This document shows positions 5,380-7,957 of a stretch of 46,411 bases of DNA, one piece after another. The DNA lies in the NCBI GenBank assembly GCA_016744085.1, contig JADGFE010000004.1, forward strand, positions 1 to 46,411. The letters run 5' to 3'. Origin of the DNA: Kiritimatiellales bacterium. Its GTDB lineage: Bacteria; Verrucomicrobiota; Kiritimatiellia; Kiritimatiellales; Pontiellaceae. Numbering within the stretch: position 1 is the stretch's first letter; each line of letters begins with the position of its first letter. The notes under the pieces are model-generated. The model worked only from the letters and a program-made list of their open reading frames with translations, was not told the DNA's origin and made no database searches. A program made the position numbers and the translations under genes.

Positions 5380-5871
5380 CTAGGGATAATCCAAGTCTGC
5401 CAGTTCACATTCCACAACGGGGACGTCATTCCAGTTAGCAGTAGGGAGCCTAATTGTGGCAATAGAGCAAGTTGGCATATTCGTGATGTGTTCGCCGGTT
5501 AACTGGCCCGCTAGCCAGCTCATCGAAGGGTTATGGCCAATTAGCATGGCCGAAGAGCACGTGTTTTCCAGGTTCTGCACAATCTCCAGCAGAGTGCTAG
5601 TTGCTGCTTCGTACATGGATTTCTTAAATAGTACCTCTTCCTTCGGAACATTCACATAGGGGGAAAGCGTTTCAAAGGTCTGCACTGCGCGCCAGGCCGA
5701 GCTGCAGATGATGCTTTCCGGCCGAATGTTCTTGTCCCGAAGTCGTTTGCCCATTTCATCGGCTTCGCGCCTGCCGCGTTCAGAAAGCACGCGGTCATAA
5801 TCCGTCTGACTGGAATCCTGCCAACCTGAATTGGCGTGGCGGACGAGATAAAGAATTTTGGAATCATTCAT
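5380..5871 (-). CDS. sixA: SixA-type phosphohistidine phosphatase
   Basis: 163 residues, typical for SixA. The histidine phosphatase signature LVRHANSG (H10-H12 region, RHG variant RHA) is at the N-terminus. SSAWRAVQT supplies the second arginine, and LIGHNPSMSWLA the second catalytic histidine near residue 110. SixA removes phosphate from phosphohistidine in phosphorelay (HPt) domains or NPr in E. coli; the partner here is unknown. The start lies inside the end of cdd (8-base overlap), with SD GAGGG, so it is coupled to cdd. Confidence 0.85.
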   Translation of the reverse strand: MNDSKILYLVRHANSGWQDSSQTDYDRVLSERGRREADEMGKRLRDKNIRPESIICSSAWRAVQTFETLSPYVNVPKEEVLFKKSMYEAATSTLLEIVQNLENTCSSAMLIGHNPSMSWLAGQLTGEHITNMPTCSIATIRLPTANWNDVPVVECELADLDYP

Positions 5872-6259
5872 GGGAACCCTCTAAATCAAAGCTGTTAGGC
5901 AAAAGGTCGCCGAGTGTTGTGGTGGCATATTCGTCGTCATTGGCCACATAAACTGGAAAATCTGGTCCGCAAAATTCCACCATTACCTGCCGGCATGCGC
6001 CGCAGGGAAATGGGGCAGCAGAACCGGATGCGACGATGGCGATGGCCTGAAATTCTTTTTTACCTGCCGCGATGGCGGAAAAAATGGCAGTACGTTCTGC
6101 GCAGTTAGTCAGCCCGAAAGATGCATTCTCCACATTACATCCACTGAAAATAGTTCTGTCGGCACATAACAGGGCAGCGCCAACCTGATATGTTGAATAG
6201 GGGGCGTGAGCGTTTTTTAATGCCTGCGTGGCAATCTCAATCAGTTCTTCGGGTTTCAT
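5864..6259 (-). CDS. cdd: Cytidine deaminase
   Basis: 131 residues from the ATG at 6259, the standard length of the tetrameric small form. Zinc motif one is NCAERTAIFSA (Cys ligand, catalytic Glu) and motif two is PCGACRQVM (two Cys ligands). It deaminates cytidine and deoxycytidine to uridine and deoxyuridine in pyrimidine salvage. The track's longer start (6313) adds 18 residues unlike the family. It also reads across the inverted repeat of the inserted GxxExxY cassette. The ATG at 6259 has an SD (AAAGGT) just outside that repeat and is preferred. It should originally have followed the purine nucleoside phosphorylase gene directly, in a salvage operon. Confidence 0.92.
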   Translation of the reverse strand: MKPEELIEIATQALKNAHAPYSTYQVGAALLCADRTIFSGCNVENASFGLTNCAERTAIFSAIAAGKKEFQAIAIVASGSAAPFPCGACRQVMVEFCGPDFPVYVANDDEYATTTLGDLLPNSFDLEGSHE

Positions 6260-6272
6260 AGTAGACCTTTCT

Positions 6273-6301
6273 TTGACAGAAAAATTTGGGACAGAAATAT
6301 T
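6273..6301 (+). repeat. Left arm of the inverted repeat flanking the GxxExxY gene
   Basis: 29 bases starting TTGACAGAAAAATTTGGG. They match the reverse complement of 7106-7133 at 26 positions, with one inserted G and two mismatches. It lies between the cdd Shine-Dalgarno and the end of the GxxExxY gene. Confidence 0.85.
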
Positions 6302-6313
6302 CTGATTCTCCAT

Positions 6314-7090
6314 CTATCTAATCGTTTTGAAGGTTAGTTCATTTGGGGAAATATTTATCCATTGAATGGCGTTCAGCGTTGTACTGTTCTTAAATTTTCG
6401 AAGATTTTTATGATACTGTTCCGATATGGTTTCAAACGTTGTAACCACTATGGCCGTTTTAGAATCGCCCAGCTCCATAGTTTGATTAGAAATGTTTTTC
6501 TTGTTGAGTCGGACGGCTATGCGGCCTTCTTTTGTGCCGCAAAAATGGTAAATTGCTTCTCGGTAGAGGGCGATATCCAATCCGCTTCCCCAGTCTTTCA
6601 GCATATCAGCGATTAAAGCTTGTTTTCGTTGGCCAAAACCTTCTGTTTCATTCCATTCTGAGGCATCTGTGTTGAATCTAATTCTATCTGCAGGCGTGAG
6701 AGATGTGTTAATGAATTCGTGCTCAACACGTTCAGTTCTCAAGTTGACGAGTTTGCCATGCTGCACCTCTGCAAGAAGAAGGTAGTTCAGTAATTGACTA
6801 CGGTGTCTAGCATTCAGGGCATTTGCCGTTTTTAGCTCAAAGACGGCTCCTTTAGCTATGAGGAGATCCATGAAATAGGTTTTTTTAAAATCTCTAAAAG
6901 AAACGTGTGTCGGAACTTCACTTTGCGCTGTACCCAATTTCTCAGTTAGGGCGTTTTTGTATACTTTTTCATCGAATAGCCGTCCTAAAGTTTTATGAGT
7001 GGAGAAAACTTCCGCCATTACATCGTATGCAATTCGAGAAAACTCCTGTTGGGAAAGTTGAACTAATTCAGATTCAATTGAAATAGGCAT
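6314..7090 (-). CDS. GxxExxY-family protein, PD-(D/E)XK nuclease-like
   Basis: 258 residues. The family motif appears as GRLFDEKVYKNAL near residue 38 (usual form GPGLLESVYEEAL). The nuclease core is seen as MDLLIAKGAVFELKTANAL at about 75-93, supplying D and ExK. HRSQLLNYLLLAEVQHGKLVNL then completes the PDDEXK_3 (PF13366) pattern. Classic GxxExxY proteins are about 125-140 residues; this one has an extra C-terminal domain (about 130-258) that I do not recognise. No function is established for the family. There is no clear SD before the ATG. It is flanked by inverted repeats (see cassette) and is bounded by punA-like and cdd genes. Confidence 0.75.
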   Translation of the reverse strand: MPISIESELVQLSQQEFSRIAYDVMAEVFSTHKTLGRLFDEKVYKNALTEKLGTAQSEVPTHVSFRDFKKTYFMDLLIAKGAVFELKTANALNARHRSQLLNYLLLAEVQHGKLVNLRTERVEHEFINTSLTPADRIRFNTDASEWNETEGFGQRKQALIADMLKDWGSGLDIALYREAIYHFCGTKEGRIAVRLNKKNISNQTMELGDSKTAIVVTTFETISEQYHKNLRKFKNSTTLNAIQWINISPNELTFKTIR

Positions 7091-7105
7091 ACGTTTTAGT
7101 TTTTT

Positions 7106-7133
7106 AAAATTTCTGTCCCTAATTTTTTGTCAA
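7106..7133 (-). repeat. Right arm of the inverted repeat flanking the GxxExxY gene
   Basis: 28 bases reading TTGACAAAAAATTAGGG on the minus strand. Pairs with 6273-6301. Contains the TGA stop of the purine nucleoside phosphorylase gene. Confidence 0.85.
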
Positions 7134-7957
7134 TTCCCCGAGCGAGCCAGGTCTTTCAGGAAGTTGGTGATGGTTTTCTTCATTCTCGGCATGGTCGCCG
7201 CAGCAGTTTCGTTGACATCCTCGTGGGTGAGCTTGGTTGGGCTGATTCCTGCGGCCCAATTGCAGACGCAGGAAAGTCCGGCCACCTGCATTCCCAATGC
7301 GTTGGCAATGATGGCTTCAGGTACGGTTGACATACCAACGGCGTCGGCGCCCATCACTTTGAACTGATTAATTTCAGCCGGAGTTTCAAAAGTGGGGCCC
7401 ATGGTTGCAACATAAACACCGGTTGAATCTGCGCCTGCAGCCAGCAGTTTCTTGCGAAGTGGTTTGTCATAAACTTCCGACTGATCCGGAAAGCGCGTGC
7501 CGAGTTTTTCGTTGTAAGGCCCAATCAACGGGTTGGAACCGAGCATATTAATGTGATCGTCAATGACCATCAAGGATCCGGGAGGCAGGTCGGACCGGAT
7601 GCCGCCGGAGGCATTCGTGAGTAAAACGGCGTCGGCTCCCATGCTATGTAATAAGTAGATAGGCAGAATGACAGGTGTCCATCCTTCTCCTTCATACCAA
7701 TGGCGACGGCCCTGAAAGATAAAAACTTCCATGCCGTTGATTTCCGTGACCAGCAGTTTTCCTGCATGGCCCATCACGCCGGTTGATCCGAATCCGGGAA
7801 TATCGGTATAGGAAATCTCCGTTCCCTGAAACCCCTGAACCGCTTCCGTCCATCCTGAACCAAGGATTACACCGCATCGGGGCTTTGCATTTGGGAGCAA
7901 TTTTTGAAGTTGCTCTGAGGCGGCATCGAGTGTGAAAGGATCGATTTGTAGATTCAT
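7130..7957 (-). CDS. punA: Purine-nucleoside phosphorylase, trimeric class I type
   Basis: 275 residues from the ATG at 7957; the track's TTG start at 7993 adds 12 residues outside the family. Motifs are RCGVILGSGW (phosphate-binding), FQGRRHWYEG, LLTNASGGI with the substrate Asn/Ser region, and VYVATMGPTFETPAEI. VGMSTVPEAIIAN is the signature near residue 210-220. It cleaves purine (deoxy)nucleosides with phosphate to base and (deoxy)ribose-1-phosphate. Its stop lies in the right inverted repeat of the GxxExxY cassette. Downstream cdd and sixA complete a salvage operon. Confidence 0.93.
   Translation of the reverse strand: MNLQIDPFTLDAASEQLQKLLPNAKPRCGVILGSGWTEAVQGFQGTEISYTDIPGFGSTGVMGHAGKLLVTEINGMEVFIFQGRRHWYEGEGWTPVILPIYLLHSMGADAVLLTNASGGIRSDLPPGSLMVIDDHINMLGSNPLIGPYNEKLGTRFPDQSEVYDKPLRKKLLAAGADSTGVYVATMGPTFETPAEINQFKVMGADAVGMSTVPEAIIANALGMQVAGLSCVCNWAAGISPTKLTHEDVNETAAATMPRMKKTITNFLKDLARSGN

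Follow-up and report, generated by a model that had tools for sequence, protein, structure and literature searches.

Several systems are known in which a single gene is bounded by repeats. The 23S rRNA intervening sequences (IVS) carry a small S23p (four-helix-bundle) ORF between terminal inverted repeats of 28 bp in an element of 428 nt, are sporadically distributed and have long been suspected to be selfish (PMC4990558). In REPIN/RAYT systems, the gene of an HUH tyrosine transposase is flanked by arms that are imperfect palindromes, usually tagged with GTAG or CGTC, and gene-less paired arms in inverted orientation are found elsewhere (PMC3116915). Insertion sequences have one gene between terminal inverted repeats, together with non-autonomous gene-less derivatives (MITEs) and occupied and empty sites, whereas free-standing homing endonuclease genes show occupied, empty and remnant alleles at one site in related species. 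The window analysed here is a stretch of 46,411 nucleotides from a Kiritimatiellales bacterium (Pontiellaceae; assembly GCA_016744085.1, contig JADGFE010000004.1, positions 1 to 46,411), in which a GxxExxY gene, belonging to a widespread family (TIGR04256/PF13366, PDDEXK_3) for which no function appears to have been assigned, lies between two inverted arms in a nucleoside-salvage operon. The initial annotation took this unit for a small mobile cassette, perhaps mobilised in trans or by homing, and the mobile-cassette reading is supported, although the unit may be moved by its own enzyme, in trans or by homing.

The arms at 6273-6301 and 7106-7133 are real. Gapped alignment of 6273-6301 with the reverse complement of 7106-7133 gives 26 identities over 29 columns with one 1-nt gap and two mismatches, while only 17 of 29 positions match without the gap. 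The score of 22 compares with a 99.9th percentile of 16 for 3000 spaced windows of the same sequence and a maximum of 18 in 5000 shuffles, and the pair ranks first among inverted pairs of the window at up to 1200 bp spacing. The left (gene-upstream) arm (7106-7133, minus strand), TTGACAAAAAATTAGGGACAGAAATTTT, consists of two tandem units, GACAAAAAATT (7121-7131) and GACAGAAATTT (7107-7117), and contains the stop codon (7130-7132) of punA (purine-nucleoside phosphorylase; 7130-7957, minus strand). The right (gene-downstream) arm, TTGACAGAAAAATTTGGGACAGAAATATT on the plus strand (6273-6301), has inverted units at 6275-6285 and 6290-6300 and ends about 13 nt before the ATG (6257-6259) of cdd (cytidine deaminase; 5864-6259, minus strand), with an AAAGG-like Shine-Dalgarno sequence between them, so that both neighbours are intact. 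ORF calling extends cdd to an ATG at 6313, immediately after the GxxExxY stop codon (TAG-ATG) and in frame through the right arm, but the start supported by homology is 6259, and the upstream ATG is absent in G017, a same-genus genome. The right arm also contains a TTGACA-17-AATATT promoter-like match on the plus strand, antisense to the gene, although such matches are no more frequent than in shuffles. Only the 258-aa GxxExxY gene (6314-7090, minus strand) lies between the arms, and the G+C content of the cassette is 39% against 48% for the window.

The encoded protein matches PF13366 (71.9 bits, cut-off 22; 7.7e-20) and TIGR04256 (65.6 bits, cut-off 35; 4.8e-18), and no other domain was found in it by profile search. 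It is a fusion of an intact PD-(D/E)XK domain (domain 1; 6719-7036, minus strand), with catalytic E41, D75, E85-x-K87 and Q99, and a degenerate second GxxExxY copy (domain 2; approximately 6323-6613, minus strand). The E, D, E-x-K and Q positions are near-invariant across 92 single-domain proteins and 33 domain-1 copies, whereas in 32 domain-2 copies they are lost while structural G, Y and N are largely kept. A domain-1 tree places two-domain proteins in two separate clades, although long-branch effects call for caution. An AlphaFold model of a single-domain member (pLDDT 89) is closest to 4ic1 (SSO0001, apparently a Cas4) with modest statistics (E 0.03, probability 0.99), followed by other PD-(D/E)XK nucleases, while the full two-domain model is poor (pLDDT 59) and no relative was found by sequence in the PDB copy searched.

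The arm-gene-arm layout is not confined to this locus. An inverted-arm score of at least 14 is found for 83.6% of 122 GxxExxY genes in 28 same-genus genomes, against 1.1% of 92 control ORFs from the same loci and 3.0% of arms paired across cassettes. The proportion is 93% of 28 genes elsewhere in the phylum, and 74% of 74 (85% at score 12) in named genomes from many bacterial phyla and from archaea (Methanothrix, Methanophagales), against 2.0% of 304 controls. In these named genomes, most left arms read the CRCNRAG unit in gene orientation (62 against 6). The architecture recurs around other GxxExxY genes, but as a unit sequence particular to each cassette and not as the same 29-mer. Each arm of the window's cassette is two tandem GACAGAAAWAT-like units. 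In the genus, most two-domain genes show two units per arm with a spacing peak of 15 bp and a second group near 18 bp, while single-domain genes show arrays of period 8-10 with a peak at 9, such as AACCACGAAGGACACGAAGGACACGAAG. At least 7 of 8 bases match between the units of one arm in 88% of two-domain arms, against 27% across cassettes and 5% for shuffles. Arm similarity tracks protein identity (Mantel r 0.52 and 0.81; 0 of 2000 permutations), although linked descent alone would also produce such a correlation.

The punA-cdd site itself is variable in the genus. In 13 loci of same-genus relatives punA is joined directly to cdd, two genomes (G017 and G001) carry 71% and 47% identical relatives of the cassette there, and two more (G022 and G009) keep decayed remnants. 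From the window and G017 to G001, the units change from GACAG to GGCAG together in both arms. A PunA tree is too poorly resolved to decide gain against loss. Similarly, the rnfE-rnfA junction is 5-9 nt in 17 genomes but holds a full cassette in G013 and a gene-less hairpin in G007, and the nadC-coaX junction is tight or overlapping in several genomes but holds a full cassette in G005 and mostly gene-less arms of at least four other unit classes in other species. No target duplication was recognisable at these three sites, where the flanks have diverged. Of 261 cassette pairs with at least 60% protein identity, 130 have no flank homology over 400 bp or more on both sides, whereas 108 share flanks, indicating that many cassettes are vertically inherited at their site, and no recent identical full copies at two sites were seen. 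The window's arm pattern occurs in only three of the 28 genomes, precisely those with the punA-cdd cassette, including four gene-less sites (two paired and two solo) with a backward control of 0, which look like derivatives rather than random occurrences. In G001, solo arms of this unit class (L361, L364) lie beside arms of a different class, as if one junction had received two elements. A gene-less inward hairpin of the CACRRAG class is found in 15 of 28 genomes, also with a backward control of 0. In G005, however, many of these are near-identical copies, in three families whose CACAGAG hairpin sits inside larger repeats with outer ends like TATACCAAATTAAACTGATT and ...AATTGGGTAT, and they are not counted as evidence of movement.

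Most likely, the unit is a small selfish DNA element that is mobile over evolutionary time, a view held here with reasonable but not high confidence. The encoded PD-(D/E)XK nuclease, with a predicted fold closest to Cas4, is proposed to bind the iterated units in its own two inverted arms and to cut DNA there or at a target, so that the unit is copied or moved, mostly into short junctions between co-transcribed genes, where it is transcribed from the host operon. The active-plus-dead two-domain form would be a fused pseudo-dimer reading units about 15 or 18 bp apart, while the single-domain form would read units about 9 bp apart, and deletion of the gene would leave paired arms. That the nuclease recognises the arms, as the arms tracking the protein and the period following domain number suggest, and that its cutting drives movement, are inferences. 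Short gene-less hairpins could be deletion relics rather than moved copies. The cassette gene runs with both neighbours in 75 genus loci and against both in none (37 to 0 by site cluster), and the left arm starts a median of 1 nt after the upstream stop codon, although neighbours were called as the longest ORF and not as annotated genes. Elsewhere the bias is weaker (29:4 and 13:1). Such orientation is not expected of a purely DNA-level transposon unless selection for transcription explains it, and it suggests dependence on host transcription.

Among the alternatives, an RNA-level intervening element survives best, though it is unlikely. In this view, the arms pair in the operon mRNA into a stem of about 28 bp that is cut by RNase III, so that the cassette is removed from the message and tolerated, as would fit the orientation bias, the placement next to the upstream stop codon and the resemblance to IVS elements in size and terminal repeats. 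Four-helix-bundle (23S IVP family, PF05635) genes in the same genus (L219-L248) also often have inverted arms of iterated units of about 7-8 bp (AGGCACTAGGCAATAGGC, GTTTGGAGTTTGGAG), 63% of 30 scoring at least 14, and a parallel element class may exist. However, differences between paired arms, an indirect test of RNA pairing, show no excess of G-U-compatible changes (87:84, p 0.88 in the genus; 71:77, p 0.68 in other taxa), which favours DNA recognition, and no Rfam match was found. An RNA stem also does not explain why units within one arm agree or why their period follows protein architecture. It is less likely still that another enzyme, such as a Y1 (RAYT-type) transposase, moves both full and gene-less units with GxxExxY as cargo. 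The window's genome has seven Y1_Tnp loci, and gene-less paired arms exist, some of them in G005 within larger multicopy repeats, but the RAYT gene whose flanks were read (L046, C283) is bounded by a different repeat, GGGGTCAGTCCTC, with GGGGTCAGTCCTCGGATTTAAG repeats in opposite orientations on its two sides. Moreover, the arms co-diverge with GxxExxY, and the window's arm pattern is confined to genomes holding that cassette. Equally doubtful is a resident regulatory or addiction gene whose arms are operators for autoregulation or for tuning the neighbours, with little or no present mobility. Vertical inheritance at many sites, the promoter-like match in the right arm and the conserved catalytic residues would be compatible with it, but the same arms bound the gene on both sides, similar units sit at unrelated loci, most punA-cdd sites in the genus are empty, and gene-less paired arms and different unit classes occur at one junction. 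The unit is not phage cargo, since 0 matches were found in phages, 1 in viral contigs and 8 records in plasmids.

A broader reading is tentative. The cassettes might represent a largely unnoticed, cross-domain class of minimal mobile element in which a PD-(D/E)XK nuclease of about 120 aa is the only enzyme and recognises iterated units in its own inverted arms, with a fused active-plus-dead form for wider unit spacing, gene-less derivatives and a parallel class built on four-helix-bundle (IVP) proteins, and the 23S IVS would then be one special case. This touches on the old puzzle of what the S23p gene does in the IVS. Most sampled GxxExxY genes sit between arms whose unit sequence and spacing follow the protein, which gives a substrate hypothesis for the family and a way to find such cassettes and their gene-less relics between operon genes. 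No description of such an element was found in the literature, subscription papers not being covered by the search.

Compared with the 23S rRNA IVS, the ORF here encodes a predicted PD-(D/E)XK nuclease rather than S23p, the site is a junction in a protein-coding operon rather than rRNA, the arms are tandem units, and there is no sign of selection for RNA pairing. Compared with Cas4/RecB-like nucleases, including solo Cas4, the single-domain protein is much shorter, has the GxxExxY motif and is bounded by its own arms. Homing endonuclease genes share the site states seen at punA-cdd (3 full, 2 remnant and 13 empty), but the present unit is bounded by inverted arms and recurs at many unrelated sites. 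As in insertion sequences, one gene lies between terminal inverted repeats, with gene-less derivatives and occupied and empty sites, but no DDE, HUH, serine or tyrosine recombinase is present, the arms are made of iterated units, and the cassettes are mostly co-directional in operons. As in REPIN/RAYT systems, gene-less inverted doublets are present, but the enzyme is not an HUH tyrosine transposase, many different unit sequences occur per genome, and the arms are not palindromic REPs, with a single-arm self-complementarity of 4.2 against 21.0 between arms and with GTAG and CGTC tags in only 2 of 98 arms each.
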